This document shows positions 5,854-38,342 of a DNA stretch of 64,000 nt, one piece after another. Within the stretch, counting starts at the first letter, position 1; every line of letters starts with the position of its first letter. Origin of the DNA: Burkholderiales bacterium. Its GTDB lineage: Bacteria; Pseudomonadota; Gammaproteobacteria; Burkholderiales; SG8-41. The stretch covers positions 62,001 to 126,000 of the forward strand of contig JAIETP010000006.1 of NCBI GenBank assembly GCA_019744975.1, in the 5' to 3' direction. A model generated the notes under the pieces. The model worked only from the letters and a program-made list of their open reading frames with translations, ran no database searches and was not told where the DNA came from. Position numbers and translations under genes: made by a program.

Positions 5854-5857
5854 CGTG

Positions 5858-7933: not shown

Positions 7934-8749
7934 ATGGCGAACTCCCGATCCGAACTGTCCGCCATTGCCACTGCACGCATGATTCTGCGCCATCGCAGGA
8001 TATTGCTGTCGGTGACCCGCGTCGAACTCGCCAAACGATATTCAGGCTCCGCTTTCGGACTGGCGTGGGTATTTCTCTACCCAGCCCTGCTGCTGTCAAT
8101 TTACCTGTTCGTCTACCTCGTGATCTTCAAAATGCGGTTCCCGGGGTACAGCGAAATGGACTACACACTGTTCGTGTTCTGCGGCCTGATACCCTACATG
8201 GGGTTCATGGAATCGATGACCGTCGGGGCATTGTCCATCAAACAGAACGTGCACCTGATCCGCAACGTGATGCTGCCGATCGAACTGATCCCGGTGCGCG
8301 CAGTGGCTGTCGGGCTGGTCACCCAGAGCGTAGCGCTCGTCATCCTGTTCGGACTTGCCCTCACCAATAACTCACTGTCTGTCCACCTTCTTTGGCTGCC
8401 TGTGGTTATCCTGCTGCAAGCGCTTTTTTTGATCGGCCTCGTCCTGGTTGTGTCTGCACTGGCTGTAGCTCTGCCCGATGTCAGCTATTTCGTGAACCTC
8501 GGCGTGCTGTTCCTGATGTTCATTTCACCCATCGGATTCAAGCCGGACATGGTGCCCGCAGGTTTTGCACCACTGATTTATCTTAATCCGGTGCACTACA
8601 TGACGGACGCGTTCCGCTCGAGCATCCTGTCAAACCATGTCATCGACATTGCCAATCTCGGAATTTATGCATTGATCTGCATTTTTACTTTTGCACTGGG
8701 GACGGCATTTTTCAGGCGCTTCAAAGATGTATTAATGGATCATGAGTGA
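7934..8749 (+). CDS. ABC-2 type polysaccharide exporter permease (Wzm type)
   Basis: The 271-residue protein has about six hydrophobic segments and the ABC2_membrane layout. A cytoplasmic N-terminal helix (VTRVELAKRYSGSAFGLAW) is followed by a conserved region before the last helix (YLNPVHYMTDAFRSSIL). Such permeases pair with a Wzt ATPase to move an undecaprenyl-diphosphate-linked polysaccharide across the inner membrane. The ATPase gene follows at once and overlaps it by eight bases. The ATG at 7934 is the only sensible start. The pair shows that at least one glycan made here leaves by an ABC route rather than by flippase and polymerase. Confidence 0.92.
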   Translation: MANSRSELSAIATARMILRHRRILLSVTRVELAKRYSGSAFGLAWVFLYPALLLSIYLFVYLVIFKMRFPGYSEMDYTLFVFCGLIPYMGFMESMTVGALSIKQNVHLIRNVMLPIELIPVRAVAVGLVTQSVALVILFGLALTNNSLSVHLLWLPVVILLQALFLIGLVLVVSALAVALPDVSYFVNLGVLFLMFISPIGFKPDMVPAGFAPLIYLNPVHYMTDAFRSSILSNHVIDIANLGIYALICIFTFALGTAFFRRFKDVLMDHE

Positions 8750-10553
8750 CCTCATTGTAAAAGCGGTAAATCTGGGCAAGACCTACCGTCTGTATGCCAA
8801 GCCACATCACCGATTTCTCGACATGTTCGGGCTGCTGCGCAATAACAATGGCGCTTTTACCGAGCACCACGCGCTTGATCATGTGAATCTGGAGATCCGC
8901 CGCGGCGAAAAAGTCGCATTCATTGGCCGCAACGGAGCAGGCAAAAGCACCCTGCTTAAGCTGATTGCCGGCGTAGCTCAACCCACTACCGGAACACTGG
9001 AAGTCAGCCAGGGCGCGCACGCCCTGCTGCAGATCGGCTCCGGCTTCCATCCTGATTTCACGGGGCGGCAGAACTCACTGTCCTACCTGGCACATCTGGG
9101 CATCACAGGCACAGAGGCGCAGGCAAAACTCGAAAACATCGTCGATTTCGCCGAACTCGAGGAATACATCGACCAACCCACCAAGACATATTCCACAGGC
9201 ATGGTGACGCGCCTGATGTTTGCAACATCCACGGTAATCGAGCCGGAATTGCTGATTCTCGACGAGATACTGGGTGTTGGTGACGCTTATTTTTCGAACA
9301 AAAGTTTTGATCGCATTCGGGAAATGTGTGCCGGAGGCCGCACGACCGTGTTGTTGGTTTCACATGACATTTATTCTGCATCGCGCATCAGTGATCGAAT
9401 GGTTTGGCTTGATGGTGGACGCGTTATCGCAGATGGCCCGGCCTCTAATGTCATGAAAGCCTACGAGGATTCCATAAGGGTGCAAGAAGAGTCCAGGCTA
9501 CGGCGAAAAGCCCGGATGAATATGGCATTGATGCAACAAAATAATCCAGGCATTCGCTGGCTGAAGGTAGATATACGAAGCCTTACCAATATGCCGATGA
9601 ATGGGCCGCTTTTTGTATCGGAAATCAAACTACAGCTAAGAGATCACATCCTATTCGCAGATCTGAGTGATGAAGGTCTTGGCAAAGCCGCCGCCCTTGA
9701 AGGTGTTACAGCGGCCCGCTGGGGCCACTTCACGGAACTGGAAGGGGTCATATGCCGGGAAATGCGTAACTATGGCACCCCCCTGCACCGGGCATCAGTG
9801 CTTTTACCTATCCCCGACGGGATTGATCGCATTACTTTGGAAAACGGAAGCCTGGGCATCCGTTATCTGAGTCAAGCTGATAGCGCCCTGGAACTCATAG
9901 CTTACGGAGCGGGTTTTCAATCAAATCCAGGCTCACTACCGGAGTCACACGGGAAATGGACCGATCATGTTATTTCGCTGTCTGAAAACAGCTCATTGCC
10001 GGGAAAAAATGACTCAATTCTCGGGGGTGCAACCATCCATGGAACAAACGATATATTAATCACAAGCGTTCGCTCATTTGACGATACCGGCAGCGAAACC
10101 CTGATGTTTCAGCATGGCGCGGCAATGTCTCTGGAAATCGGGTTTGAAATACGCAATCCGCAACTGAACCAAACTGCAGATTTGTTGGTGGGGTTTCATC
10201 GCGACGGCATTACCGATGTATGCCGGTTCTTTACTCCAGATCTGAGATTCGACGCCTCCAGTGCACCAGTCGGCGTAGTGAAAATGAAAATCTCAAAAAT
10301 AAATCTTGCCAACGGAACTTACACCGCTTCGCTGACTCTTGCGAAAGCTGGCTACTATGCAGATAACCCTGCCATCTTTTACGCCATAAACCCGGATGTT
10401 TACACCTGCTTGTCACGAGTATTGGAAATACAAATACACGGTGGTGATTTAGTCGCTTCAGGTGCGGGCGTTGTTGGCGAAGCCACATGGCAAGTAGTAC
10501 CGGGAAAATTACCGGAAAAGCATAAAAATTTGATTGTTAAGGAGGTTGGATGA
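8742..10553 (+). CDS. ABC polysaccharide exporter ATPase (Wzt type) with extended C-terminus
   Basis: The product has 603 residues. Residues 1-240 form the ATPase with Walker A GRNGAGKST (62-70), signature STGMVTRL (151-158) and Walker B LLILDE (170-175). A further 350 residues follow, in which roughly 430-590 looks like the beta-sandwich carbohydrate-binding domain of Wzt proteins, and 265-400 is an additional segment I do not recognise. Wzt C-terminal domains are known to recognise the capped end of their own polysaccharide and so set export specificity. Base composition becomes clearly more AT-rich from about 9480 onward, where the extension begins, which suggests domain exchange. The last bases overlap the carbamoyltransferase start (ATGA). 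Confidence 0.92.
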   Translation: MSDLIVKAVNLGKTYRLYAKPHHRFLDMFGLLRNNNGAFTEHHALDHVNLEIRRGEKVAFIGRNGAGKSTLLKLIAGVAQPTTGTLEVSQGAHALLQIGSGFHPDFTGRQNSLSYLAHLGITGTEAQAKLENIVDFAELEEYIDQPTKTYSTGMVTRLMFATSTVIEPELLILDEILGVGDAYFSNKSFDRIREMCAGGRTTVLLVSHDIYSASRISDRMVWLDGGRVIADGPASNVMKAYEDSIRVQEESRLRRKARMNMALMQQNNPGIRWLKVDIRSLTNMPMNGPLFVSEIKLQLRDHILFADLSDEGLGKAAALEGVTAARWGHFTELEGVICREMRNYGTPLHRASVLLPIPDGIDRITLENGSLGIRYLSQADSALELIAYGAGFQSNPGSLPESHGKWTDHVISLSENSSLPGKNDSILGGATIHGTNDILITSVRSFDDTGSETLMFQHGAAMSLEIGFEIRNPQLNQTADLLVGFHRDGITDVCRFFTPDLRFDASSAPVGVVKMKISKINLANGTYTASLTLAKAGYYADNPAIFYAINPDVYTCLSRVLEIQIHGGDLVASGAGVVGEATWQVVPGKLPEKHKNLIVKEVG

Positions 10554-12535: not shown

Positions 12536-12559
12536 TGACAAATAACGGCCGATTAAACT
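12532..12559 (+). promoter_or_regulatory. probable sigma70-type promoter before methyltransferase
   Basis: TTGATG (12532-12537) and TAAACT (12554-12559) are 16 bases apart in the 61-bp gap after the carbamoyltransferase. Transcription would begin near 12566, about 30 bases before the methyltransferase ATG at 12597. A GTG at 12566 opens a 16-codon frame that runs into the methyltransferase start; this may be chance. Only sequence resemblance supports the call. Confidence 0.4.
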
Positions 12560-12596
12560 CCCGGCGTGAGCATCACCATTTTCAAAAAACAAGGTC

Positions 12597-15359: not shown

Positions 15360-15362
15360 CTC

Positions 15363-19281: not shown

Positions 19282-21183
19282 ATGTGCGGCGTCGTCGGCA
19301 CGCTGATATTTGATTCGGGCCGCGGCCAGGTTGATGCCGGCCTGCTGGAACGGATGCGCGACACCATGACGCACCGGGGCCCGGATGGCGCCGGAATCTG
19401 GATCAGTAATGACGGCAAAGTCGGACTCGGACACCGGCGGCTGTCCATCATTGATCTGTCGACCGCTGCCACCCAACCGATGAGCAACGAGAATGGCTCG
19501 CTGTGGCTGAGCTTCAACGGCGAAATCTACAACCACGCGGAAATCCGCCGCGAGTTGGAACAAACCGGACGTTATCGCTGGAAAACCGATCATTCGGATA
19601 CGGAAGTCATTCTTCATGCCTTCGAAGAATGGGGCATCGACTGCCTGCAGCGCTTTCGCGGCATGTTTGCATTTGCGCTGTGGGATGGCGCGCGGCGCGA
19701 ACTGTGGCTGGTGCGTGACCGCATCGGTGTCAAACCGCTGTATTACAGCATGCACCACGGGAAAGTCAATTTCTCTTCTGAAATCAAAGGGTTACTGGAA
19801 GACCCCGGGCAGGAACGCGCCGTCTGTGAAGAAGCGCTTTTTCATTACCTGTCGTTTCTGACCACACCTTCGCCCCAGACCCTGTTCTCCGGCATCCGCA
19901 AACTGGCGGGTGGCACCTGGCTGCGTATCCGCGCCAATGGCGAGATGGAAGAACGCCGCTACTGGGATGCGCTGACCCACACCCGGCCGCTGGTCGGCGT
20001 CAGCGACGCGGAAATCGCCGAGCGCGTGCTTGCCGAACTGCGGGTGGCCGTCAGTCTGCGCAAGGTCAGCGACGTGCCGGTGGGCGTATTCCTCTCCGGC
20101 GGCATCGACTCCAGCACCAACACGGCGCTGTTTTCGGAAGGCGAAGGCGGCCCCGTCAAAACATTTTCCATCGGTTATCGCGGTCAGTATCAGAGCTACG
20201 AAAACGAACTGCACTACGCGCGCCAGATGGCCGCACAGGTCAGCGCCGAATATCACGAGACCCTGCTTGATGTGGATGACCTGATCAATTTTTTGCCGGA
20301 GATGGTGCGCCTGCAGGACGAGCCGATAGCCGACCCGGTATGCGTGCCTGTGTACTATGTGTCGAAACTGGCCCGTGACAATGGCGTGATTGTCTGTCAG
20401 GTCGGCGAAGGCGCGGATGAGCTGTTCTGGGGTTACCCGCAATGGAAAACGGCGTTGATGCTGCAGAACCTGGACAAGCTGCCCGTACCGCGTTTTGTAA
20501 AACACATGGCGCTGGCCGGGCTGCGCGGACTCGGCCAAAAAGACAGCTTCCGTTATGAATGGCTGCGCCGCGGCGCCACCGGTACACCGATTTTCTGGGG
20601 CGGCGCTGAAGCCTTCACTGAAGCCCAGAAACAGCAGTTGATGTCGCCACGGCTGAAAAAACAGTTTGCAGGTCGCACTTCCTGGGAGGCCGTGGCTCCC
20701 ATCCGCAAGCGCTTCGAGGAAAACGCCTGGGAAGCTTCGCCGCTGAACTGGATGACCTACGTCGACCTCAACATGCGCCTGCCGGAGCTGCTGCTGATGC
20801 GCGTGGACAAAATGAGCATGGGTGTCGGCCTCGAAGCGCGCGTCCCCTTTCTCGACCACAAGTTCGTCGAGTTGGCGATGAGCATCCCGCAGGCTGCCAA
20901 GGTGCGCAATGGCACGCTCAAGCATATTCTGAAAACAGCCGTGCGCGGCCTGATTCCGGATGAATTGATCGACCGCAAAAAACAGGGCTTCGGGGTGCCG
21001 GTTTACGAGTGGTTCTTCGACAAGCTCGGGGCATACGCGCGCAAGGAACTCGATTTCTTTTGCAAGCACACTGATTACCTGGACAGGGAACAGGTGTTCC
21101 GCCTGCTCGACTCCGGCAACGGTCCGCAGGCCTGGTACCTGCTCAATCTCGCGCTGTGGTGGAAACAGCATGTTTACCGCTGA
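19282..21183 (+). CDS. asparagine-synthase-like glutamine amidotransferase (second copy)
   Basis: The 633-residue protein starts MCGVVGTL with the catalytic Cys2. It shares long stretches with the copy at 15363, such as HRRLSIIDLSTAATQPM, FNGEIYNHAE and TDHSDTEV. The PP-loop is FLSGGIDSS near residue 270 and the pocket reads VGEGADELFWGY, closer to consensus than the first copy. It probably amidates a sugar carboxylate using glutamine and ATP, though asparagine synthesis cannot be excluded. It is sandwiched between methyltransferase genes, abutting one and overlapping the other by 14 bases, which repeats the arrangement around the first copy. Confidence 0.9.
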   Translation: MCGVVGTLIFDSGRGQVDAGLLERMRDTMTHRGPDGAGIWISNDGKVGLGHRRLSIIDLSTAATQPMSNENGSLWLSFNGEIYNHAEIRRELEQTGRYRWKTDHSDTEVILHAFEEWGIDCLQRFRGMFAFALWDGARRELWLVRDRIGVKPLYYSMHHGKVNFSSEIKGLLEDPGQERAVCEEALFHYLSFLTTPSPQTLFSGIRKLAGGTWLRIRANGEMEERRYWDALTHTRPLVGVSDAEIAERVLAELRVAVSLRKVSDVPVGVFLSGGIDSSTNTALFSEGEGGPVKTFSIGYRGQYQSYENELHYARQMAAQVSAEYHETLLDVDDLINFLPEMVRLQDEPIADPVCVPVYYVSKLARDNGVIVCQVGEGADELFWGYPQWKTALMLQNLDKLPVPRFVKHMALAGLRGLGQKDSFRYEWLRRGATGTPIFWGGAEAFTEAQKQQLMSPRLKKQFAGRTSWEAVAPIRKRFEENAWEASPLNWMTYVDLNMRLPELLLMRVDKMSMGVGLEARVPFLDHKFVELAMSIPQAAKVRNGTLKHILKTAVRGLIPDELIDRKKQGFGVPVYEWFFDKLGAYARKELDFFCKHTDYLDREQVFRLLDSGNGPQAWYLLNLALWWKQHVYR

Positions 21184-21997
21184 AGACACGTACGGTACGC
21201 GCAAACGCTTCGAGTTCTGCCGTGATCTCGTGCAGGAAACCCGCCCTGCGCTGGTGCTGGATGTGGGCTGCGGCACCGGCACCCAGCTGACGCGCCCCCT
21301 TGCTGAAGCGTTCCCCGGCGTGCAGTTCATCGGCGTGGATCCTGACGAGGTCAGCATCCGCTACGCGCAAAGCCTGCCGGCACTGCCCAATTTGCAATTC
21401 GGCGGAACGGCCTTGCTGGACCGCCATACCCGCGCCGATCTGGTGATCGCCTCGGAAGTGGTCGAACACGTGGAAAATCCGGATCAATTCCTCGCCGATC
21501 TTCGTCGCAGGCTGCCTGAAAACGGCAGGCTGGTGATCACGGTGCCCAATGGTTATGGCCCTTATGAAATGGTCGCTGCCATTGAATGCCTGCTGCGCAT
21601 CCTGCGGATTTACTGGGTGATGCGAAAAATCAAGCGCCGGCTGATGCACCAGCCGGCGCCGGAGCGTGCAGTGATGCAGGATTCGCTGGCCATCAGCCCA
21701 CACCTGAGTTTTTTTTCGACAAGCTGCCTGCTACGCCTGTTCAGCAAAACCGGGCTGCGGATTGTCCGTTATCAACCACGGACTTTTCTGTGCGGGTTTG
21801 GTTTCGACAAACTGTTGCCGCGATTCGGGCTTTGTGACTGGAATGCTTCCGTTGCCGACCGCTTGCCTAATTGGTGCAACAGCGCATGGATGTTCGTGCT
21901 GTCCCCTGCCGAGGCCCTTCCCGGGAAACCTTTTGAGCGGGGTTTGCTGTCGCGGCTGCGCCGCCGGCTCAACGAAGCCTGCGCAAGACTGGCCTAG
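21170..21997 (+). CDS. class I SAM-dependent methyltransferase
   Basis: This 275-residue protein has motif I VLDVGCGTGTQLT, the acidic strand-2 end in IGVDPDEVSI and SEVVEHVENPDQFL, followed by PENGRLVITVPNGYG. That is the classic Methyltransf_11/23 pattern. Its C-terminal part (SFFSTSCLLRLFSKTGL) also fits that group. It overlaps the preceding amidotransferase gene by 14 bases, and the flippase starts one base after its stop. It is not a close relative of the 5026/12597/18520 trio, so it may act on a different position or acceptor. Role in glycan methylation is inferred from context. Confidence 0.86.
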   Translation: MFTAEDTYGTRKRFEFCRDLVQETRPALVLDVGCGTGTQLTRPLAEAFPGVQFIGVDPDEVSIRYAQSLPALPNLQFGGTALLDRHTRADLVIASEVVEHVENPDQFLADLRRRLPENGRLVITVPNGYGPYEMVAAIECLLRILRIYWVMRKIKRRLMHQPAPERAVMQDSLAISPHLSFFSTSCLLRLFSKTGLRIVRYQPRTFLCGFGFDKLLPRFGLCDWNASVADRLPNWCNSAWMFVLSPAEALPGKPFERGLLSRLRRRLNEACARLA

Positions 21998-21998
21998 G

Positions 21999-23240
21999 AT
22001 GTCGCTGCACCGTCCTGTCATTCTCGTTTTTTCGGCGGATCTGGCGTCAAAAATCCTGCTCGGCCTGACCTGGCTGTTGCTGATCCGTTACCTGCCGCCG
22101 GAGGAGTTCGCCCTGCTCACGCTGGCCACTTCCGTAGCCACGGTGGCAAGCCAGATGCTCGGTTCCAGCATTAACCGGATTTATATTCTGGACAGTAGCA
22201 GCACCAGCAACGGCGGCCCCGGTCCGCTGGTCCTGTTTCAGGCCGGGGCATTGCTCCTGCTGGGTATTGCAGGATTACCGTTCTCAGGAGCGCTGCCGGG
22301 TACGGCATACATGCTGACGGTGCTGCTGGCCCTAGGCATGCTGCTTTCCGATTTCGGCAAAACCATGTACCAGAAACAGTTGAAGTTTTCGGCGTTCTCC
22401 TTCATTGAACTGGCGCGATCCGCTGTTGTTTCGGCGGCGCTTATCGTACTGCTCATGCAGTTTGGCGCCGGCATCCGCGCCTGGCAGGTCATTGCCGTAC
22501 AAGCCGCCGCCCTGGGCATGTTGTCGCTGATCGTGATCAGCCGGCACCTTGATCTGCGGGAAACGCTGGATCTGCGGCGCGGAATAGATCTTTTGCGGCC
22601 TGTTTTCGGCAACGGTCATGGTTACCTGTTCGCTTATTTTTTTGCGCTCGCTTTCTTTTCGCAGGTCGACATATTCCTGATCAAGGTGCTGTCTGACCAG
22701 GAGACGCTGGCCTCCTTCGGGTCCGCCGCTCGTTATTACCAATTGCTCTCGCTCGCACTGGGCGCCGTGCATGCGGTTTTTCTGCCGACGATGCAGCACC
22801 TTGCAACCCGGCAAGCCCTGGACGAATTTTTCGGCCGGCACTTCAGGATGCTGCTGGTGTTCGCGCCTGTCGTCGGCGTTTGCGCCCTGGCTGCCCCCTG
22901 GGTATTGCCATGGATTGATCTAGGACGTTATCCCGATGCCGTGCCGACGTTCCAGATTCTGTGCCTGTCAGTAATCATTTCCTTCGCCTTCAGTCCGCAC
23001 GTCAACCTGGTCTTTACCCATCGGCGGTTCCGCTTCCTGCTGTTGCTGATTGTCGTGGCACTGGTGGTTAATATCGGACTGGGTTTGATGCTGATCCCGA
23101 CTTACGGCGGACAGGGTGCCGCTGTGGCCACGCTGATTGCTTCGGCCTGTGTCACCGTACCGATATACATCCTGTCCCGGCGGCTGCGCCAGCCCCCTGC
23201 CGGCATTGCTGACGTCGGAAGCAACGGCCACGGTCTGTGA
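21999..23240 (+). CDS. oligosaccharide flippase family membrane protein (Wzx-like)
   Basis: The product has 413 residues from ATG 21999, one base after the preceding stop. A longer frame from 21762 would lie inside the previous gene. It is strongly hydrophobic with about ten to twelve predicted helices (LLGLTWLLLIRYLPPEEFAL, then a regular series) and the distribution expected for the polysaccharide_synt/Wzx branch of the MOP superfamily. Members flip undecaprenyl-diphosphate-linked oligosaccharides to the periplasmic face. Together with the Wzm/Wzt pair and the fused flippase-like block at 27774 this gives three possible translocation routes within 25 kb. Confidence 0.82.
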   Translation: MSLHRPVILVFSADLASKILLGLTWLLLIRYLPPEEFALLTLATSVATVASQMLGSSINRIYILDSSSTSNGGPGPLVLFQAGALLLLGIAGLPFSGALPGTAYMLTVLLALGMLLSDFGKTMYQKQLKFSAFSFIELARSAVVSAALIVLLMQFGAGIRAWQVIAVQAAALGMLSLIVISRHLDLRETLDLRRGIDLLRPVFGNGHGYLFAYFFALAFFSQVDIFLIKVLSDQETLASFGSAARYYQLLSLALGAVHAVFLPTMQHLATRQALDEFFGRHFRMLLVFAPVVGVCALAAPWVLPWIDLGRYPDAVPTFQILCLSVIISFAFSPHVNLVFTHRRFRFLLLLIVVALVVNIGLGLMLIPTYGGQGAAVATLIASACVTVPIYILSRRLRQPPAGIADVGSNGHGL

Positions 23241-24104: not shown

Positions 24105-26348
24105 ATGCATGATTTCAAATCCAGATTGTTGCGTTATGCCGCCACACCACCGGGCACGCTCTGGCGCAAGGCGGTTCGCCGCATCAAATCTGCCTCCGCA
24201 CAACGCGTGCACCGGGCTCGGGATCAATACTGCAGCAGTTATGCACCGGACACTGTCTCCGGCCAGCTGTTTTTGCATCTACAGACTTTTCCGTTGCAGG
24301 AAGCAGCGGCGCGCCCCGAAATCCTGCAGATGCTCACGGAGCATTATCTGGCCCATCGTTTTGACCTGCTCGGCTCAGGCTGGGTGCCCGTGTATCACGG
24401 CGCAGAATGCCGCGGGGTCGAAGAACACCGTTATGAGCCTGTTGCTCAGGCAGGCCTGCCGCTACCCGACCGGATCAATCCCGCCAATCGCCGGGAATCA
24501 TCACGATTGCAGGGCCTGCTGGAGGGCGATTACCGGCCGATCGATTGGCAGCTTGACTTCAAAAGCGGGTTTCGCTGGCGTGAAGACTGCTGGTACAAAG
24601 ACATTGCAATAAGTACCGGTTGTCCGGGAGCAGACATCAAAGTGCCTTGGGAACTGGCTCGCTGCCAGCATTTGCCGCAACTCGCACTCGCGTACGGGCT
24701 TGCCCGCGCCGGCACCCCGGGGTTTCGCGATGCGCTGGAATACCAGCGGGAATTCCGCAATCAGATCATCGACTTCATGGCTGGCAATCCGCCGCGCTTT
24801 GGCGTCAACTGGGCATGCCCCATGGATATCGGCATCCGGATTGCCAACTGGCTGATGGCTTACGATCTGTTTGTCGCTGCCGGCGCAGAATTTGACAATG
24901 CCTTTGTCGCAGCACTGAGCCGCAGCGTCCATGAACATGGCTTGCACATCGCGGGAAATCTGGAATGGAACGAGGCTTTCCGCAGCAATCATTATCTGGC
25001 TGATCTGGCCGGCCTGCTTTTCGCCGGCGCCTATCTGCCCAGCGGTACTACAAGCGACGACTGGATCCGCACAGCAGCCGTTGAATTGCTGATCGAGATT
25101 CCCGCACAGTTCAACGGGGACGGCTCCAATTTCGAGGCCTCGACCTGTTATCACCGCCTCTCTGCGGAAATGGCCGTATATTCGGTGGCACTGCTGTCAT
25201 CCATACTGCGCCGGCGACTGCCGCTGCCCTGGCAGGTATCTGCAACGCGGCCAGGCGGAGTTCCGACACATTGGGAAGATGATGGGCAGATCTTTTCCCG
25301 CGCCCTGACCGGCATTCTGGAGCGGGCTGCGGAGTTCAGCATGCATGCAACTAAAGAAGACGGTTGCGTTGTCCAGATCGGGGACAATGACAGTGGCCGT
25401 TTTTTCAAGTTGCAGCCTGCCGGCGCAGTCATGACGGTCGAACAGGCCCGCCGGCAGCAGGAAAACCTGTCCGGTTATGCAGTTTTGCGGGATAACGAGG
25501 ATTATTGGCTGGAAGACAGCCTTGACCATCGGCATCTCGCCGGTGCAATCGGTGCTTTGTTCGCGCGTCAGGATTTGTCTGATTTCGCCGGCCCGTTCGG
25601 ACTGGACGCGGCCGTGATTCGCATACTGGCCGGAAACCGCCGGTTTCAGGGGTACCGGGATGACTCTCAGCCGATGAAAGCATCGACGGTAAGGAAGGGA
25701 GCCGACCATGAGTTCGTTGCAGTCGAAACCCGGCTGCAGGCGCTACCCAGTACTGGCCGGCAAAGTTACCGGTTTCCGCTGCCGTCAGCCGTCAGCCGGG
25801 ATGCAATTGAAAACTTTGGCTATCCTGATTTCGGCCTGTTTATTTTCAAGGCCAACGGCTTTTACCTCGCTATTCGTTGCGGCCCCCAGGGGCAGGCCGG
25901 AAACGGCGGACACGACCACCACGATCAGCTCTCGGTGGAGCTGGTCATCAGCGGGCATGCCCATGCCCTGGATCCCGGCACGTATCTCTACACAGCGCTG
26001 CCGGAGCGTCGCAATGAGTATCGAGCCGCTGCTGCGCACTTTTCGCCGCGGATTGCAGGCATGGAACCCGGCAGTCTTGCCCAGTTGTTTTCACTCCCGG
26101 ACCTTGCGCGCGCCGAGTGCCTGTATTTCGGCCGAATGGGCTTTATTGGGCGGCACCATGGCTACGGAACTCCGGTCTATCGCGTCATTGCATTCGCAGA
26201 CCATCATGTCGAGATCCGCGATTATGCAGAGGGCAGAACACTCGAAGCCTGCTCCTTTGCCGATGCGGGCACGAACCGCAGCCACCATCAAGGTACGCCG
26301 TTTTCCGCGGGTTACGGCATGCGCTCACGCTCTACGGTGGGCAATTAA
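24105..26348 (+). CDS. heparinase II/III-family protein (second copy)
   Basis: This 747-residue protein shares the architecture of the 5858 product. A helical N-terminal domain contains KVPWELARCQHLPQ near residue 180 and SNHYLADLAGLLFAGAYLP. From about 565 comes the beta-sandwich with GNGGHDHHDQLSVELV and DPGTYLYTALPERRNEY. It is longer than the first copy, mostly in the middle. No signal peptide is visible. Family members cleave uronate-containing glycans by beta-elimination. Two diverged copies beside a bi-domain oxidoreductase and exporters suggest a conserved function in making or finishing the polymer. The GT4 gene starts one base after its stop. Confidence 0.84.
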   Translation: MHDFKSRLLRYAATPPGTLWRKAVRRIKSASAQRVHRARDQYCSSYAPDTVSGQLFLHLQTFPLQEAAARPEILQMLTEHYLAHRFDLLGSGWVPVYHGAECRGVEEHRYEPVAQAGLPLPDRINPANRRESSRLQGLLEGDYRPIDWQLDFKSGFRWREDCWYKDIAISTGCPGADIKVPWELARCQHLPQLALAYGLARAGTPGFRDALEYQREFRNQIIDFMAGNPPRFGVNWACPMDIGIRIANWLMAYDLFVAAGAEFDNAFVAALSRSVHEHGLHIAGNLEWNEAFRSNHYLADLAGLLFAGAYLPSGTTSDDWIRTAAVELLIEIPAQFNGDGSNFEASTCYHRLSAEMAVYSVALLSSILRRRLPLPWQVSATRPGGVPTHWEDDGQIFSRALTGILERAAEFSMHATKEDGCVVQIGDNDSGRFFKLQPAGAVMTVEQARRQQENLSGYAVLRDNEDYWLEDSLDHRHLAGAIGALFARQDLSDFAGPFGLDAAVIRILAGNRRFQGYRDDSQPMKASTVRKGADHEFVAVETRLQALPSTGRQSYRFPLPSAVSRDAIENFGYPDFGLFIFKANGFYLAIRCGPQGQAGNGGHDHHDQLSVELVISGHAHALDPGTYLYTALPERRNEYRAAAAHFSPRIAGMEPGSLAQLFSLPDLARAECLYFGRMGFIGRHHGYGTPVYRVIAFADHHVEIRDYAEGRTLEACSFADAGTNRSHHQGTPFSAGYGMRSRSTVGN

Positions 26349-27690: not shown

Positions 27691-27773
27691 GGTCGCGACG
27701 GAATCCTGTTCTTAAAACATGAATTTAATACCAGACCGGTTTTTTGCCGCCGCATGCGACATCGCCTGAAATA

Positions 27774-30700
27774 ATGGAATCTTCCTCAGAAATTCCGGCC
27801 TCCTCCGGGGCACCCGGCTCGGCTTCAGTGTCCGTGGTTGTGCCCTGTTACCGGTGCAGCAAAACCATTCGTCGCGCGGTAACCTCCGTTGCAGCACAAA
27901 CCTGCCGGCCCCTTGAAGTCATCCTGGTCGATGACGGCAGCGGTGACGACACACTGGAGACACTGCTCGACATACAGCGGCAATACGGGGATGTCTGGAT
28001 CAAAGTCATTCCGCTGAAGGTAAATGCCGGCGCCTCCGCTGCACGCAATGCGGGATGGGATATTGCCAAGGGTGAAATGGTCGCCTTCCTGGATGCCGAC
28101 GATGCCTGGCACCCGGAAAAAATCCGGATCCAGCATGAGTTCATGGCCACTCATCCGGAGTTCACTCTAACAGGCCACGGTCATCGCCAGCTTGATGAAG
28201 TGCCGACAGGGCACTCTCCTGCCGGACAAGTCACGCATGACGTTGTTTCGTACAACACCCTGCTCCTGTCCAACCGCTTCATCACCCCATCCGCAATGAT
28301 CCGGCGCGATGTGCCCTTCCGTTTTCAAAGCACCAAACGCCACATGGAGGATTTTCACCTGTGGCTGACCGTTGCCGCGAACGGACACCGCATCGCAATT
28401 CTTGATGCCGAACTCGCCTACATCTTCAAGGCACCTTTTGGCGAACTCGGTTTGAGCGCTGACATCGTTGCCATGGAAAAAGGCGAACTGGACTGCTATT
28501 GGAAACTGCACCAGGAGGGTCAACTCGGCATATTGCCGACACTGTCGCTTTCTGCATATTCCTGCACAAAATTCCTGCGCCGCATCGCCGTCTCCGTGCT
28601 ACTGGGACGGCGGGCGGCAATGCCATGGCTGTTTCCGCTGGTTTATCTGGCGGTAACCCATTCGACGACAGCGCTGCTGATCATTGTCGGATTGTTGGGG
28701 CGCCCCGAAATCGCGACGGACATTGCGCTGATACAAGGCGCCACGCTCGCCACTTTTTATGCGCTGTCGGCCAACGCCCGGAACCTGATTCTGCGGCAAT
28801 CATCCCCCCTGCTGGCCACCGAGGTACTTCTGGCCAGACTGCTGTTGCTGGCCCCGCTGATGGGGGCTTCACTGCTGCTTTCTCTCACCGGCACCACCGT
28901 GCCATGGTGGCTGGCCGCATGTATCGTCATCAGGCGCGGAGTCGAATGGATTAACGAGATCCATCTTTGCGAAGCAGAACTTTCGCAAAAAACGCAGTTC
29001 GCCGTTTCATTCCTGCTGCTGCAGTGCATGCTCTTTTCCCTGGCGGCAGCGAGCCTGGCCTTCGATTGGCCGTTTGCGATGCCCGTCATGATGTTGTGGG
29101 CGATTCTGCCGCTGCTATTCAGCATCCGCTTTCTCGGGACTGCCTCTCACGCCACCCTTCAATCCCTGAAACGCATTTTTGGGGTTCTCACATCCCATGT
29201 CGGATCTACGCTGATCATCGGTTTGCGCATCTACGCGCTCCGGATTCTTGTCGTGCTGATGGTGGCCAAGGACGTTGCGGGGGATTTGTTCACGGCCATG
29301 GCCATCGGCAGCTTTCTGGGTACGTTGTTTGCCAATGTATTCGGCCCCAGCATAGAACTGCATCGGGAACGTGCGGGAAAAACCTACTACCCACCCGTCG
29401 TCAAGCTTGCGCTGGCAGGCAACCTTTTAACGGGCGCTTCTCTTCTCGCTGCGTTGTATTTTTTCCCGACCGCGTTCCCGTTGCTGGGAAAACCTGAATT
29501 CTTTTGGTTGTCGTGCGGGCTTTCCCTGATTGGTGGCGCGCTGATGGTCGCAGCGCAGGGAGTACGGTTGCGCCTGTTGCGCGCCAGCGACGGCCGCACG
29601 GTCTTCGGGCCGGATGTGATTATTCATATCACCATGCTCGGCACGGTACCGCTGGCCTATTACCTGTTCGGGGCGCAAGGACTCGCCAGCCTTTATCTGG
29701 TCGATGCCCTGCTGTGTTACTTTTTTTACAAGAGTTCCGAAATCGGTTTGCATCAGAACCAGCTTGCGAGGCCATTCGTGTCATCCCTTTTCCCTGCCAT
29801 ACTTTCTTTTCTGCTCGTCTTCCCGCTATTTTTTCAGCTTTCCGGAAAAATTTACAACAGCATTGATCCGGTCGTTGACTCCGGCGGTGTTCTGGCCAAT
29901 TTGCCGCTGCCGATTTCGATCATCGCCTGCTTTATGGGCATTCTCCTGCTCGCACGTTACCGTCTTGCAACCCGGTCATTCGCCTTCATCCTGATTTTTT
30001 TCGCGGTCATGCTGCTGTCCGCGGCACTTACCACCAGCGATTCCCTTGAACGCGGCAAACTTCTACTGCTGATCCAGTTTCTGTTACCGGCATTCGGACT
30101 GGTTCTCGGTGAGATGGTTGAGGACGGCAATGCGGATCCTCTGTCTACAGAGAAGGGTTTCATATGGGCGTGCGCGGCCATCATCCCTTTGCAGATACTC
30201 GCGTCCTGGATGCAGGGTCAGCTGAGCCTGTCTCATCACCTCGGACTGTTTTCGGTCTACCAGCACTGGCAATATGTGCCTGTTGTAGTCGTCTCCGCCA
30301 CCCTGATCTCAGCGTCAGCACTCCGCACAACACCCGGCTACCGCCTGCTCTCCATGGCTTTGCCATTGGCGGGTTTGATTTATGCTCTCGCCGCGTTTTC
30401 GCTGCTCGCAAGCGCTCTGGCAATCGCCGGCATAACTGGCTTGGTATTTTTCCAGAAAAAAAGTCGCTTTATGATCTGGATGATTTCCAGCTTGACTATC
30501 GCTGGTTTGGCCGGATATATGCATCTTTTGCGCGGTGAGCCTGAATTCTCAAGCAAGTTCATCTTGCCCTTGTCTCAGGAAAGTCTGCTTTCGCCTCCCT
30601 GTCTGAATGAATCCGCGCGGTTTGTTTCAAATATTGTGCGCCCTGTAGATTCGGATTGCCTTGCAAAAGGCGAGCCCCGTCACCGCCATGGCTATCTGAT

Positions 30701-31445
30701 CGCACTGCCCAAGAAAAAAATCGACGGATCCACCATGCTGATCGTAGAGGGAACGATCGTATCAGGCGGAGTTACTGTTGGCTTGGTGCAGGGGGGCAAG
30801 TGGGCACAGCAACAGAATTTTGACGCGCCAGGGCCTTTCAGAGCCGAATTAAGCCCGGGAGCGGGTGTATTTGAAGGTGTCCTGGCTAATTATTTGCCGG
30901 ATACCGCTTTCACCGAAGTCCGTATCAAGCGCATGAGCTGGGTAAGCTCTTCTCCCATTAACGGCGCAAAAAACAACGCCGAACCGACCGCCCAAACTTT
31001 ACCGGACTGGGCCAATGAATATCTGCCCATCAATCTCCAGGAACGGATTGAAGACTGGATGCTGTTCGGCCGACCAATTTTTTCCAGTACTACCAGCTTC
31101 TTTTTTGGCCACCCTCCGATGGACCGCTCTGTTAGAACCAGCGCGCATAATTACTACATCGACTTAGTCTACAACTTCGGAATAATCGCTTTGCTACCGA
31201 TTGGCGCGCTCTTCGTATACACCACCAGACTGCTGTGGCAAAGACGGAAAGATCTGTTTGAATCGCAACGGTTGCTGTGGCTGGCCATCCTGGTCGCGTT
31301 TTTTATCATCATAGACAGCAACTTCAAGGTTACGCTGCGCCAGCCCTATCCCGGAATTTTCGCCTTTTTTCTCTGGGGATTATTACTGGCACGTTTGCGA
31401 ATCCCCGGTACCGAGCGCCCTATCAACAGCAGCGGCAACCGCTAA
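27774..31445 (+). CDS. three-part fusion: GT2 glycosyltransferase, flippase-like block, O-antigen polymerase/ligase-like block
   Basis: One uninterrupted frame gives 1223 residues from ATG 27774 (a TTG at 27744 is in frame). Residues about 18-260 are a GT2 domain: VSVVVPCYR, LVDDGSGDD, SAARNAGWDIA and FLDADDAW. Residues about 285-700 form a series of ten or more hydrophobic helices resembling MOP-type flippases. Residues about 715-1205 form a second helical block ending in SAHNYYIDLVYNFG, like the HNxxL motif of WaaL/Wzy proteins. Within it, residues about 940-1060 form a soluble beta-rich insert, probably periplasmic. Such activities are normally on separate proteins. The fusion could couple sugar addition, flipping and polymerisation for one glycan. 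Domain calls rest on motif and hydropathy reading only. Confidence 0.75.
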   Translation: MESSSEIPASSGAPGSASVSVVVPCYRCSKTIRRAVTSVAAQTCRPLEVILVDDGSGDDTLETLLDIQRQYGDVWIKVIPLKVNAGASAARNAGWDIAKGEMVAFLDADDAWHPEKIRIQHEFMATHPEFTLTGHGHRQLDEVPTGHSPAGQVTHDVVSYNTLLLSNRFITPSAMIRRDVPFRFQSTKRHMEDFHLWLTVAANGHRIAILDAELAYIFKAPFGELGLSADIVAMEKGELDCYWKLHQEGQLGILPTLSLSAYSCTKFLRRIAVSVLLGRRAAMPWLFPLVYLAVTHSTTALLIIVGLLGRPEIATDIALIQGATLATFYALSANARNLILRQSSPLLATEVLLARLLLLAPLMGASLLLSLTGTTVPWWLAACIVIRRGVEWINEIHLCEAELSQKTQFAVSFLLLQCMLFSLAAASLAFDWPFAMPVMMLWAILPLLFSIRFLGTASHATLQSLKRIFGVLTSHVGSTLIIGLRIYALRILVVLMVAKDVAGDLFTAMAIGSFLGTLFANVFGPSIELHRERAGKTYYPPVVKLALAGNLLTGASLLAALYFFPTAFPLLGKPEFFWLSCGLSLIGGALMVAAQGVRLRLLRASDGRTVFGPDVIIHITMLGTVPLAYYLFGAQGLASLYLVDALLCYFFYKSSEIGLHQNQLARPFVSSLFPAILSFLLVFPLFFQLSGKIYNSIDPVVDSGGVLANLPLPISIIACFMGILLLARYRLATRSFAFILIFFAVMLLSAALTTSDSLERGKLLLLIQFLLPAFGLVLGEMVEDGNADPLSTEKGFIWACAAIIPLQILASWMQGQLSLSHHLGLFSVYQHWQYVPVVVVSATLISASALRTTPGYRLLSMALPLAGLIYALAAFSLLASALAIAGITGLVFFQKKSRFMIWMISSLTIAGLAGYMHLLRGEPEFSSKFILPLSQESLLSPPCLNESARFVSNIVRPVDSDCLAKGEPRHRHGYLIALPKKKIDGSTMLIVEGTIVSGGVTVGLVQGGKWAQQQNFDAPGPFRAELSPGAGVFEGVLANYLPDTAFTEVRIKRMSWVSSSPINGAKNNAEPTAQTLPDWANEYLPINLQERIEDWMLFGRPIFSSTTSFFFGHPPMDRSVRTSAHNYYIDLVYNFGIIALLPIGALFVYTTRLLWQRRKDLFESQRLLWLAILVAFFIIIDSNFKVTLRQPYPGIFAFFLWGLLLARLRIPGTERPINSSGNR

Positions 31446-34313: not shown

Positions 34314-35297
34314 GTGTGGCTCGCCATCTCCACCGTCCTGACTGCGTTTTTTGTTGCCGTGCTGAGCGTTGGCTGGCTGGCACACAGCCGTGCTGCGCGG
34401 CTGGCTCTCGACCAACCCAACGCCCGGTCACTTCATACCTCCCCGGTCCCCCGTACTGGCGGTATCGGTCTTCTGCTCGGGGTGGCCGCAGGCTGGACCT
34501 GGATTGCCCCGCATCTGCCGTGGTTATTCTGGGCCGCCCTGCTGCTGCTAATTGGGGTGTCGCTGCTGGATGATCTGCGCGGACTGTCCGCCGCCGTACG
34601 CCTGGCCACACACCTGTTTGCGGCAATGCTGATGGCATCGGCATTGCCCGCCCTGCATGAATCCTTGCTGTTGTTTGCAGTGGCGGTGCTGGCCATCGGA
34701 TGGATGTGCAATCTCTACAATTTCATGGATGGATCCGACGGGCTGGCCGGCGGCATGGCGGTATCCGGATTCCTGGTTTACGCCGTGGCTGCATGGCTCT
34801 CCGGGAGCGTCCAGTTTGCATTGCTGAATCTGGCAGTGGCCGCAGCCGCCACCGGATTCCTGGTGCACAACTTTCATCCGGCACGCATCTTTCTAGGTGA
34901 TGCCGGTGCCGTGCCGCTGGGTTTTCTGGCCGCGTCTTTTGGCATTGTCGGCTGGCTGCAACACGATTGGACCTGGTGGTTTCCGCTGCTGGTGTTTTCG
35001 CCGTTTATTGTGGATGCGAGCGTGACCCTGGCGCGACGGCAGCTGTCGGGCGCCCGTGTCTGGGAAGCCCACCGCGATCATTATTACCAGCGACTGGTGC
35101 AACTGGGACTGGGCCATCGCGGCACTGCGTTCGCAGAATATGCACTGATGGCAACAAGCGGGATAGCCGCACTGTGGGCTGTTTCTCTTGGCGAGCACCT
35201 GCGACTGGCCGTAATCGCCACCACTTGCGTTCTGTATGCCGGATTGATCTTGGTGATTGAGCGCCGATGGCGCGAATGGCAACGCCTGCATGCCTAA
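34314..35297 (+). CDS. wbpL: undecaprenyl-phosphate sugar-1-phosphate transferase (WbpL/WecA family)
   Basis: The 327-residue product starts at GTG 34314. It has the family motifs HTSPVPRTGGIG in the first cytoplasmic loop, LLDDLRGLSAAVR with the DDxxx pair, NFMDGSDGLAGG and IFLGDAGAVPLGFLA, on about ten hydrophobic helices. Enzymes of this family begin O-antigen synthesis by moving HexNAc-1-phosphate from UDP onto undecaprenyl phosphate. Its placement between WbpV/K- and WbpM-like genes argues for a FucNAc or QuiNAc primer, as in Pseudomonas aeruginosa. The last eight bases overlap wbpM. Confidence 0.9.
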   Translation: MWLAISTVLTAFFVAVLSVGWLAHSRAARLALDQPNARSLHTSPVPRTGGIGLLLGVAAGWTWIAPHLPWLFWAALLLLIGVSLLDDLRGLSAAVRLATHLFAAMLMASALPALHESLLLFAVAVLAIGWMCNLYNFMDGSDGLAGGMAVSGFLVYAVAAWLSGSVQFALLNLAVAAAATGFLVHNFHPARIFLGDAGAVPLGFLAASFGIVGWLQHDWTWWFPLLVFSPFIVDASVTLARRQLSGARVWEAHRDHYYQRLVQLGLGHRGTAFAEYALMATSGIAALWAVSLGEHLRLAVIATTCVLYAGLILVIERRWREWQRLHA

Positions 35298-37101
35298 CTA
35301 TCGCATCGTGCTCGCCGTCGCCCACGATCTTCTTGCAGCCGCTGCCGCGTGGCTGATTGCGTACTGGCTGCGATTCAACCTGGAGCTTCCAGAGCTTTAT
35401 AACGAGCAATCTCTGAAATCGGTGCTCTGGGTGGTGCCCTTGTACGGGGCCATGTTCCTGTTTTCAGGCCTGTATCGCGGCATCTGGCGTTTTGCCAGTC
35501 TGCCAGACCTGCAGCGCATTATTGTTTCTGTGACGCTGGGTGCGTTGGCCGTGCCCGCCATGCTGTTCATGCTGCAATTGTCCGTGCCACGCTCGGTACT
35601 GGTAGTGAGCCCGGTTTTGCTGGTCATGTTCATGGGCGGCAGCAGGCTGGCATACCGGGGTTGGAAAGAGCGCCGCTTCGGCGCATTGATCCAGGGACAG
35701 CGGGAGCCGGTGATTGTCCTAGGAGCCACGGAAGCGGCGGCAGCCCTGATCAAGGATCTGGTACGCAGCCCGCAATGGCAAGTCATGGGCGTATTCGACA
35801 ACGACCGGGCGAACCATGGCCGCCAGATACACGGGACCACAGTTCACGGGGCGATCAGTGATCTGCCGAAACGGCTGCCACGCCTGAATGTCCGATACGC
35901 CATTATCGCCATGCCCGAGGCCAATCACAGCGCACGACGGCAAGCCGTCGAGGTTGCGCGCACATCCGGGCTGCAGGTGCTGACGGTACCTTCTTTCGAC
36001 GACCTGATGAGCGGCCGTGTTACTGTTTCGCAGATTCGTAATGTCGAACTCGATGACCTGCTGGGCAGGGATCCGATCCGGCTCGACACCACCAAACTGC
36101 AGGATTGGCTGGGCAATCACGTTGTAATGGTTTCCGGTGCCGGCGGCTCGATTGGTTCAGAACTTTGTCGGCAAATCGCCCGGTACCAGCCGCAGCGCAT
36201 CGTCCTTTTTGAAAACAACGAGTTTTCACTTTATGCGATGGAGCAGGAATTTGCAGGACGGTTTCCGGACGTTCCGATCAGCCTGGTAATCGGGGATGTC
36301 AAAGACCGCCGCCGGGTGGAACAGGTCCTATCGACACTAAAACCCACTGTTATTTTTCACGCGGCCGCTTACAAACATGTCCCTTTGATGGAAAGCGAAA
36401 ACGCATGGCAAGCCGTCATCAACAATGTGGGCGGAACCCGCGTACTCGCTGAAACTGCGCAAGCCCATCACGTTGAAAAATTCGTGCTGATTTCCACCGA
36501 CAAAGCGGTCAACCCCACCAATGTGATGGGCGCCACCAAACGCATGGCAGAGCTGGTCTGCCAGTCGCTGCAGCAGCGTGGCGGCACGCGCTTTGTCATC
36601 GTGCGTTTCGGCAATGTGCTCGGCTCCACCGGCAGCGTGATCCCGAAATTTCGCGAGCAGATCGCCGCTGGCGGCCCGGTCACGGTCACCCACCCGGAAA
36701 TCACCCGCTTTTTCATGTCGATTCCGGAAGCGGTACAGCTGGTGATGCAGGCCGGGCTGATGGGCGGCAACGGCGAGATTTTTGTGCTCGACATGGGTGA
36801 GCCGGTAAAAATTGCCGATCTCGCACGCGACATGATCCGGCTGTCCGGATTCGATGAAAAAGACATCAAGGTCGTTTACACCGGACTGCGCCCCGGCGAA
36901 AAACTCTACGAGGAATTGCTCGCCGCGGATGAAAATTCGCTGCCGACGCCGCACCCGAAACTGCGTATCGCCAAGGCGCGTCCGGCGCCGGCAGAATTAC
37001 TCGATCAGCTCACCCCGTGGTTCGCGCGCACTGCGCTGCCCGATGACGCAACCGTGCGCAAAGAACTGCAACAGTGGGTGCCGGAGTACTATCCACAATG
37101 A
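35290..37101 (+). CDS. wbpM: UDP-GlcNAc 4,6-dehydratase-type protein (WbpM/CapD family)
   Basis: From ATG 35290 the protein has 603 residues. Four hydrophobic helices occupy residues about 1-115, a CoA-binding-like domain follows (PVIVLGATEAAAALIKDL), and from about 275 comes the catalytic short-chain dehydrogenase domain with VVMVSGAGGSIGSEL, FHAAAYKHVPLMES and STDKAVNPTNVMGATKR. WbpM converts UDP-GlcNAc to UDP-4-keto-6-deoxy-GlcNAc, the precursor of FucNAc and QuiNAc. The motif set is complete. A start at 35257 is possible but would overlap wbpL by 41 bases. Confidence 0.92.
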   Translation: MPNYRIVLAVAHDLLAAAAAWLIAYWLRFNLELPELYNEQSLKSVLWVVPLYGAMFLFSGLYRGIWRFASLPDLQRIIVSVTLGALAVPAMLFMLQLSVPRSVLVVSPVLLVMFMGGSRLAYRGWKERRFGALIQGQREPVIVLGATEAAAALIKDLVRSPQWQVMGVFDNDRANHGRQIHGTTVHGAISDLPKRLPRLNVRYAIIAMPEANHSARRQAVEVARTSGLQVLTVPSFDDLMSGRVTVSQIRNVELDDLLGRDPIRLDTTKLQDWLGNHVVMVSGAGGSIGSELCRQIARYQPQRIVLFENNEFSLYAMEQEFAGRFPDVPISLVIGDVKDRRRVEQVLSTLKPTVIFHAAAYKHVPLMESENAWQAVINNVGGTRVLAETAQAHHVEKFVLISTDKAVNPTNVMGATKRMAELVCQSLQQRGGTRFVIVRFGNVLGSTGSVIPKFREQIAAGGPVTVTHPEITRFFMSIPEAVQLVMQAGLMGGNGEIFVLDMGEPVKIADLARDMIRLSGFDEKDIKVVYTGLRPGEKLYEELLAADENSLPTPHPKLRIAKARPAPAELLDQLTPWFARTALPDDATVRKELQQWVPEYYPQ

Positions 37102-38342
37102 TCGGCGCAATGGTATTGCAGCCCTTTACCACGGGCATCGGAGCGCTCGGTCGCTGGAGCGCCATCGCCATCGGCGCATCGGTGCCGGTTTCGATTGCAC
37201 TGGATAACGTGCTGTTGGCCGTCGCCCTGCTCGCCTGGCTGGTCGGTCTGCAGTACCGCGACAAGCTGCGGCAGACCTGGGCCAACCCGGTGTATCGCGC
37301 CGCCCTGCTGCTGTTTGTAGTGCTGCTGACGGGAACGCTTTACGGCAAACCGGCCCCGGGGGATGCAAACCTTTTTTTGCTGAAATATCTCGACCTGGCG
37401 CTGATCCCGGTGCTGGGCTGGGCTTTTATCACTGCATCCAGCCGGGAACAGGGCTTACGAACTCTGGCCTGCGGTCTTACGCTGGTACTGTTGATTTCCT
37501 GTGCGTTAAAAATCGGCTTGATCCCTCCCGACCCATGGCTGCGAGGTACGCCGGAATCGTTGCTGCGTGGCATGCCGGAATCCCCTGTTGTGTTCAAACA
37601 ACGCCTGACCCATAACATCCTCATGGCTTTTTCCGGATTTTTATTTGCTTGGTTATGCGTTAGTGCAAGGGCAGGTATAGCAAAAATCGGCTGGGGTAGC
37701 TTGAGCTTACTGGCTGTCGCCAACACCATGCTGATGGTCGAAGGCGCAACCGGTTACGTCCTGCTGGCAGCCTTGGCCCTGCTGTTTAGCTGGCAGCACC
37801 TCCGTTTCCGGGGGGTGGGCATTACCATCGTCCTAAGTCTGATCATCGCCGCGACGCTGATTATGGTCCCGGGACCGTTCCAGAACCGGGCCGGCCAGAT
37901 ACTCCATGAACTGGAGCAGGAAAGCGCCGACCGTCCCGCAACCACTTCAACCGGTTTCCGCATGGAGTTCTACCGCAACACCATGACCCTGATCGAAAAA
38001 AATCCGCTATTCGGCACCGGCACCGGCAGTTTTCCCGCCGCCTACGCGGAACTGGTCAAAGGCACCGGCCAGAATCCCTCGCGCAACCCGCACAACGAAT
38101 TCATGCTGATCACCGTGCAGACCGGCCTGATCGGCCTGGCTGCGTTTCTCTGGTTACTTTGGCAGCAATGGCGCCTGGCCCCGCAGCTGCCAACGCCAAT
38201 CGAACGCGGCCTCGCCCAGGGACTGGTGGTGATGATGGGCATCATCTGCATGCTCAACTCCGCGCTGCTCGACCATACTGAGGGACTGCTGTATGCGTGG
38301 CTGACGGCTTTGCTTTATGCGGGGTTAAAATCAGATGCGTGA
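37098..38342 (+). CDS. O-antigen ligase/polymerase family membrane protein
   Basis: The ATG at 37098 overlaps the wbpM stop as ATGA and gives 414 residues with about eleven hydrophobic helices. A large loop precedes the conserved NPHNEFMLITVQTGLIG near the C-terminus, the HNxxL-type motif of WaaL and Wzy proteins. GTGTGSFPAAYAEL in the loop is also typical. It either ligates undecaprenyl-linked glycan to lipid A-core or polymerises repeat units; sequence alone does not decide. It closes the long plus-strand locus, and its TGA stop lies within the first unit of the heptamer array that follows. Confidence 0.85.
   Translation: MIGAMVLQPFTTGIGALGRWSAIAIGASVPVSIALDNVLLAVALLAWLVGLQYRDKLRQTWANPVYRAALLLFVVLLTGTLYGKPAPGDANLFLLKYLDLALIPVLGWAFITASSREQGLRTLACGLTLVLLISCALKIGLIPPDPWLRGTPESLLRGMPESPVVFKQRLTHNILMAFSGFLFAWLCVSARAGIAKIGWGSLSLLAVANTMLMVEGATGYVLLAALALLFSWQHLRFRGVGITIVLSLIIAATLIMVPGPFQNRAGQILHELEQESADRPATTSTGFRMEFYRNTMTLIEKNPLFGTGTGSFPAAYAELVKGTGQNPSRNPHNEFMLITVQTGLIGLAAFLWLLWQQWRLAPQLPTPIERGLAQGLVVMMGIICMLNSALLDHTEGLLYAWLTALLYAGLKSDA

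Follow-up and report, generated by a model that had tools for sequence, protein, structure and literature searches.

Can a single bacterial protein add a sugar to a lipid-linked glycan, carry that lipid across the membrane and join the glycan to its acceptor? Sugar addition, flipping and joining are usually the work of separate proteins in bacteria. The question is raised by a gene of 1223 codons plus stop (27774..31445, plus strand, ATG start) in a 64,000-nucleotide stretch of a Burkholderiales genome (GenBank assembly GCA_019744975.1, contig JAIETP010000006.1, positions 62,001 to 126,000), hereafter the window. The initial annotation, made from the sequence alone, read this gene as an all-in-one glycan assembly factor with a GT2 glycosyltransferase part, a flippase-like part and a polymerase/ligase-like part. 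Our analysis points to a fusion of three units that would act successively on an undecaprenyl-diphosphate-linked oligosaccharide, with the activities, the substrate, the order of the steps and the direct hand-off all putative. We assign this reading a probability of about 0.5.

Architecture of the fused protein

The frame holds no stop before 31445, and an alternative TTG start at 27744 would add ten residues. All parts lie on the plus strand. The GT2 domain (residues 18-214, 27825..28415) is followed by a linker (residues 215-282, 28416..28619) that is 90% identical between the window and L023, one of two other fused copies. Next come a MOP-fold block with 12 predicted transmembrane (TM) helices (residues 283-660, 28620..29753) and the C-terminal block, or C block. 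The latter consists of a first half with WaaL-like TM helices 1-9 (residues 661-930, 29754..30563), a beta-sandwich insert in a long periplasmic loop (residues 931-1070, 30564..30983), and a second half with a periplasmic helix, the HN loop and WaaL-like TM helices 10-12 (residues 1071-1223, 30984..31442). Without head and insert, the two membrane blocks form a core of about 800 residues, which is, judged by sequence comparison, a separate family, a widespread pair found in O-antigen-type clusters.

The identity of the head is clear. It matches PF00535 (E 5.9e-29, residues 20-148, 101.6 bits against a cut-off of 23.3), as well as the NCBIfam TuaG model at E 2e-29, far below that model's cut-off, and among PDB sequences it finds solved GT2 relatives, the best being chondroitin synthase (E 3.5e-18). 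The motifs VDDGS (52-56), DAD (107-109, D107-A-D109) and ED (192-193, E192-D193) are present, in line with the GT2 motifs that the initial annotation mentions, and we take them to be the catalytic motifs. GT2 is also the only Pfam family over its cut-off on the window protein; the two membrane blocks, queried separately, gave none.

Hydrophobicity averaged over the family gives 12 peaks at residues 298-645 and another 12 at residues 681-1202, omitting a peak at 996 within the beta insert. The presence of two separate polytopic blocks is thereby borne out, while the border between them, placed at 705-715 by the initial annotation, has to be moved to near residue 660, with the match to WaaL starting at 661-663. 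Within the MOP-fold block, the loops carry on average 2.2-3.2 lysines and arginines after even helices and 0-1.2 after odd ones. Loops rich in these residues are cytosolic under the positive-inside rule, so the GT2 domain is predicted to be cytosolic. The positive-charge bias across the loops of the C block is weak. From the helix count, the loop after C-block helix 9, which carries the insert and the HN motif, is predicted to be periplasmic, as in the WaaL fold.

The soluble beta-rich insert seen earlier is real, with strands at residues ~975-1058. In the 41-row family alignment just 7-9% of the rows have residues at 961-1060, and the ~130-residue insert and the extension on the GT2 side occur in the window, L023 and L024 only. 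By sequence, both additions are confined to this one clade. By fold the insert is a candidate carbohydrate-binding module, not clearly set apart from chance matches.

Proposed mechanism

In the mechanism we propose, the cytosolic GT2 domain would add a sugar to a lipid-linked unit, and the MOP-fold block would carry that lipid through the inner membrane. On the periplasmic side the WaaL-fold block would take over the lipid and transfer the glycan from its diphospholipid carrier to an acceptor; the likeliest acceptor is a surface-polysaccharide chain under extension, which would be a polymerase-like use. The beta-sandwich insert, next to the active site, might keep the acceptor chain in place. 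Across the two membrane faces, the protein would most likely couple addition of the sugar with flipping and with transfer of the undecaprenyl-diphosphate-linked glycan. From the earlier one-chain proposal, the three kinds of part and a predicted topology that fits them have stood; flipping and transfer we infer.

A parallel in principle is MprF, a lipid synthase and flippase in one protein, where a lipid is likewise made and translocated by one chain; its substrate is another one, and the likeness drawn here is one of principle. As long as the membrane proteins are separate, it is difficult to test whether the flippase of the Wzx/Wzy pathway passes the lipid directly to the polymerase; a natural covalent pair makes this question directly testable, by structure and by splitting of the chain.

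The C block: polymerase or ligase

The best fold match of the predicted C block is WaaL. In sequence, the block alone scores 10.7 bits against PF04932, not reaching the cut-off of 31.7, with E 0.47 to Wzy_C, and eight of 41 family members match PF04932 at E 0.1, the best at 4.9e-9. A comparison by hhalign of the second half with 21 Wzy_C proteins gives a probability of 97.1 and E 5.6e-11. It aligns H1125 with the invariant histidine of these proteins, which upholds the WaaL/Wzy-like HN motif of the initial annotation (H1125-N1126 in TSAHNYYID, codons 31146..31151, upstream of the invariant D1130 and R1189). The first half contains a second motif, YQHxQYVP (H831, Y834).

Six residues of the C block are kept in 41/41 members: Q768, Y834, D1130, Y1133, R1189 and P1191. 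H1125 is present in the window and in 35/41 rows of alignment A4 (34/41 in A2, a slightly different row set). Besides R1189, the arginines R1118 (40/41) and R1091 (35/41) are well kept, and these arginines are candidates for the pair that binds the diphosphate in WaaL. Such motif counts lean towards the exact peptide patterns through which the 41 loci were collected, and the family is probably larger. They omit L052 (broken frame, tandem copies) and L062 (a fragment); L040, which nearly duplicates L039, was kept in A2 and left out of A3, A4 and A8, and the full cores L064, L066 and L067 from the class scan were not added to the alignments.

PMC10920833 gives a histidine as the acceptor-activating residue of O-ligases, in place of which the polymerase families of that clan mostly carry an aspartate or glutamate. 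H1125 would correspond to the O-ligase histidine. D1130 is invariant, yet lies five residues past the position of the histidine in the profile alignment with Wzy_C.

We lean slightly towards a polymerase-like C block, for two reasons. A separate Wzy_C protein is matched in 18/21 genomes of the genus, versus the core in 9/21 and in two distant clades; and H1125 is replaced in 6/41 members, D1130 in none. The strongest competing explanation is that the C block is a ligase. The protein would then resemble a longer WadA, producing one complete glycan, flipping it and attaching it. The glycan would be added to the lipid A-core, or as a side branch to another polysaccharide that the separate Wzx or ABC system exports. 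We regard this as a serious possibility, although the less probable one. The WaaL fold and the HN histidine, whose equivalence to the O-ligase residue comes from the profile alignment, speak for it, as does the precedent of WadA, in which a glycosyltransferase and an O-antigen ligase share one chain (PMC9938171, as covered in part); the Wzx, Wzy_C protein and ABC exporter that co-exist in the cluster would then serve the main chain. Against it stand the natural members that lack the histidine and keep Asp1130, and the separate Wzy_C protein, which is found in 8/9 genus genomes with the core and in 10/12 without it and is the better WaaL candidate.

The comparison with described systems draws the same lines. 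In the available excerpts, WadA of Brucella combines a GT25 domain with an O-antigen ligase (PMC9938171, PMC10920833): an N-terminal cytosolic glycosyltransferase of ~266 residues is joined to a 12-TM O-antigen-ligase-type block, with active sites on both faces of the membrane. The window protein does not have this architecture of GT25 directly joined to GT121, as it carries GT2 instead of GT25, an additional 12-TM MOP-fold block and the beta-sandwich insert. Furthermore, those excerpts propose that the glycosyltransferase of WadA acts on the lipopolysaccharide core, flipped by MsbA, unlike what we propose here. With WaaL (PDB 7TPG, CAZy GT121) the core family shares the fold of the C block and differs in the histidine absent from 6/41 members, the invariant aspartate five residues on, the fused partners and the insert. 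With Wzy polymerases (CAZy clan GT-C1; PMC10920833, in part) it would share the role, the O-antigen-type cluster and an invariant aspartate near the HN position; the window protein matches no polymerase model or solved structure.

Origin of the fusion

The survey for genomes with the same fusion, which had been suggested earlier, returned two besides the window: L023 (genome G026, 85-86% identical) and L024 (genome G013, 71-72%), both with GT2 and insert. L023 is unbroken across all 1223 codons; L024 is unbroken across the junction between GT2 and core and keeps 49 residues of the GT2 side before its contig ends. The intact frame claimed for the window is confirmed by these copies. Between the window and L023, the rates of nonsynonymous and synonymous change (dN/dS) are 0.092/0.599 in GT2, 0.055/0.651 in the linker, 0.074/0.654 in the MOP-fold block, 0.089/0.834 and 0.068/0.751 in two parts of the C block and 0.085/0.62 in the insert. 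With dN well under dS in each part compared, the fused protein is evidently under purifying selection.

The GT2 head seems to have been acquired later, at or near the old start of the core, Met283 (ATG codon 28620..28622). This methionine is found in all 11 rows of alignment A1. Of the eight unfused rows, four begin with it, three have a short extension before it, where the earliest possible start was called, and one is cut. An upstream GT2 gene therefore seems to have become continuous with the core, at its start or close by. Directly before the unfused cores no GT2 gene was adjacent at E 1e-8, the nearest being 1.7 kb upstream. In the core tree, where the long-branch rows are unsure, the fused copies group together in a single clade (100/100). 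This clade is closest to the unfused L030 and L048 (98/98) and not to the proteins of the same genus, which indicates that the core has moved between lineages.

This history would also suit another explanation, in which GT2 and core work independently and a stop codon between two operon genes was lost neutrally, the core perhaps also being made alone from Met283. In its favour, the junction lies at or near the old start, and just three of the 41 rows of A2 are fused to GT2 (L034, in genome G016, cannot be judged, as its contig ends ahead of the core). We consider it unlikely: the linker (dN 0.055, dS 0.651) is constrained like the domains it connects, and the fusion has outlasted the divergence of three species.

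The MOP-fold block

The predicted structure of the middle block has the MOP fold, with no detectable counterpart in sequence. None of 39 members matched the MOP families PF01943, PF13440, PF14667, PF03023 and PF01554 at E 10, in a search where HMMER filters drop most matches above 0.1, and hhalign against 20 Wzx proteins gave a probability of 4.7. Searches of PDB sequences with the core, the MOP-fold block and the C block returned no relative. The first half of the core reached the cut-off of no named Pfam family, and none of the NCBIfam models listed for it is credible; NCBIfam searched with the core gave only glycosyltransferase names among the best 25 of 40 families. The initial annotation had let its reading depend on a relation of this block to MOP flippases, which is absent at the level of sequence and present at the level of fold.

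Nine charged residues (R336, R355, R387, E391, E395, E402, R490, R598 and D614) are kept in 40/40 MOP-fold blocks. They lie mostly in or adjoining predicted helices 2-4, 7, 10 and 11; the model assigns R387, E391, E395 and E402 to helix 4, R490 to helix 7 and R598 to helix 10. The WzxE cavity described in PMC11706664 contains arginine pairs; helices 1, 2, 7 and 8, with portions of 4 and 10, form most of it. With WzxE, MurJ and MATE proteins the middle block shares its fold, 12 predicted TM helices and charged residues within helices; it differs in having no detectable sequence similarity to them and in being joined to a WaaL-fold block in 40/40 rows, all collected with the joined core as query. 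On the predicted model, the MOP-fold block would flip a lipid-linked glycan.

Alternatively, the block could be a scaffold that no longer transports and instead holds GT2 and the transferase together or tethers them to the separate Wzx. The missing sequence kinship to flippases fits this, as do the separate Wzx in the window and at other core loci and the stand-alone C-block proteins that exist with no MOP-fold block (L046, L047, L060, L019). Still, a mere scaffold would hardly need nine charged residues kept in every block, and dN/dS is as low here as in the other parts, making a scaffold improbable in our view. That two genes were joined by an assembly or sequencing artefact is hardly credible and we reject it: all three fused copies do come from draft assemblies and one is ended by a contig end, but the same in-frame junction in assemblies of different species, 71-85% identical and dominated by synonymous changes, would need one error common to all three.

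The core family

Within the taxonomic family, the core is matched in 9/74 genomes, the window's own included; all nine belong to the genus, which contributes 21 genomes. Apart from the three fused copies, the six other matches in the genus are proteins of 800-833 residues, five complete and unfused and the sixth being L034, which runs into its contig end before the core begins. In the order, 5/300 genomes match (own counted), two of them new with a full core. In the class, 15/369 match. Four of these matches extend over both blocks (own counted; that of G399 contains a stop), ten are weak and fall around the Wzy_C region, and the remaining one is a C-terminal fragment. The 41 loci came from searching named genomes with the alignment of the core; they lie in Pseudomonas, Herbaspirillum, Hydrogenophaga, Denitromonas, Zoogloeaceae and others, as well as in contigs labelled Deltaproteobacteria (3), Planctomycetes (2), Verrucomicrobiales (1) and Elusimicrobiales (1). 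The members from Planctomycetota (2), Elusimicrobiota (1) and Verrucomicrobiota (1) are single metagenome contigs and possibly misbinned. A contig scan with the window protein as single query gave no match. By tblastn, 625 plasmid records match, none over more than 80% of the query, and the best 20 cover the GT2 part only.

The Elusimicrobiales protein (L055:9929-13555) has 1208 residues, ~395 of them after the core. One member of the core family matches GT4 (PF00534, E 3.5e-16), which we take to be L055 from its length. It is apparently an independent fusion, with GT4 at the other end of the core. A broader and more doubtful idea is that the core represents a widespread unnamed class of flippase plus polymerase or ligase that passes units within the chain, to which a glycosyltransferase was added twice independently (GT2 at the front here, GT4 at the rear in Elusimicrobiales), giving a synthase-like enzyme that would add, flip and join without releasing its substrate.

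In the open-licence literature, covered by titles and abstract openings and with most subscription journals outside, no single chain joining a flippase to a polymerase or a ligase is described among the papers listed. The parts are known families or folds; for their covalent combination we found no description, and the core family is unnamed in the libraries searched. Since the first half of the core has no named Pfam and no credible NCBIfam match, clusters that hold the core may seem short of a part.

Stand-alone C blocks of 428-479 residues occur at L046:5783-7087, L047:7495-8781, L060:9914-11353 and L019:811-2250. Pseudomonas mosselii (L052) has tandem cores at 9986-12456 and 13839-16514, the first broken into pieces of 670 and 168 residues.

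The gene cluster of the window

The fused gene lies in a surface-polysaccharide cluster with heparinase-family lyases, GT4 glycosyltransferases, asparagine-synthase-type amidotransferases, methyltransferases, an acyltransferase and an epimerase. On the plus strand the cluster encodes a separate Wzx-type flippase (21762..23240; PF13440, E 5.2e-8; matched in 2/21 genus genomes), the separate protein of the Wzy_C/O-antigen-ligase family (37074..38342; PF04932, E 2.3e-21), an ABC-2 exporter (7934..8749) and an ABC ATPase with a match to Wzt_C at E 5.9e-5, below cut-off (8742..10553). "All-in-one" in the sense of replacing separate proteins is therefore not supported, and a role as sole factor of the cluster is rejected in view of the Wzx (21762-23240), the Wzy_C protein (37074-38342) and the ABC exporter (7934-10553). 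Also on the plus strand are an initiating transferase (34314..35297; PF00953) and a dehydratase (35257..37101; PF02719), of the WecA/WbpL and WbpM types, respectively.

Three different export-type systems are located within ~22 kb, namely ABC-2/Wzt (7934-10553), Wzx (21762-23240) and the MOP-fold block (28620-29753), which suggests that two or more glycan pathways are stacked in this cluster. There are two lyases of the heparinase II/III family (5855-7927 and 24105-26348) and two asparagine-synthase-type amidotransferases (15363-17363 and 19282-21183). Lyase, amidotransferase and Wzx occur together also in L023, L039 and L056, and L044 has lyase and Wzx. This recurrence hints at a uronamide-containing glycan. 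The GC content is 0.49 at 10001-12000 and ~0.53 on either side (8001-14000), compared with 0.56-0.65 in most other parts. This low-GC stretch, perhaps acquired DNA, covers a carbamoyltransferase (10550-12535) and the last part of the Wzt-type ATPase.

Surroundings of the core in other genomes

At 23/39 core loci, several of them with short flanks, a second polytopic protein of ~475 residues, here A5, is found within the fetched flanks, directly beside the core in 20 cases. A separate Wzy_C protein is present at eight of the 39; L031 alone has both A5 and Wzy_C, and nine loci have neither. A Wzx-like protein is found at 14/39, one of which (L047, 976 residues) is doubtful. The clusters of L046 and L047 each combine a stand-alone C block with a full core and A5.

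The A5 family (for example L042:12399-13841) has the motifs YQRG, SRGMILN and DRWVGxEG. Five members gave no Pfam match better than E 0.27, the family has no credible NCBIfam match, and comparisons with Wzy_C, the C block and Wzx found no relation. A5 is possibly an unrecognised polymerase or transferase. It was matched in 2/14 genomes and not in the window's own, with a search of weak sensitivity: the genome-wide profile search missed even the window's own Wzx (PF13440), so its absences are weak evidence.

In Pseudomonas guguanensis (L037) the cluster consists of GT4, core, A5, RmlD-like and dehydratase genes, a 406-residue frame, and epimerase-, WecA-, PglD- and WbpM-type genes, and no other flippase gene was recognised in the fetched flanks. 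Genome-wide flippase searches, which can miss, gave one PF13440 match at C12:101981, off the cluster (the core lies at ~242 kb of its contig). Its profile range of 197-284 leads us to take it for MurJ. A transposase is located upstream of the cluster.

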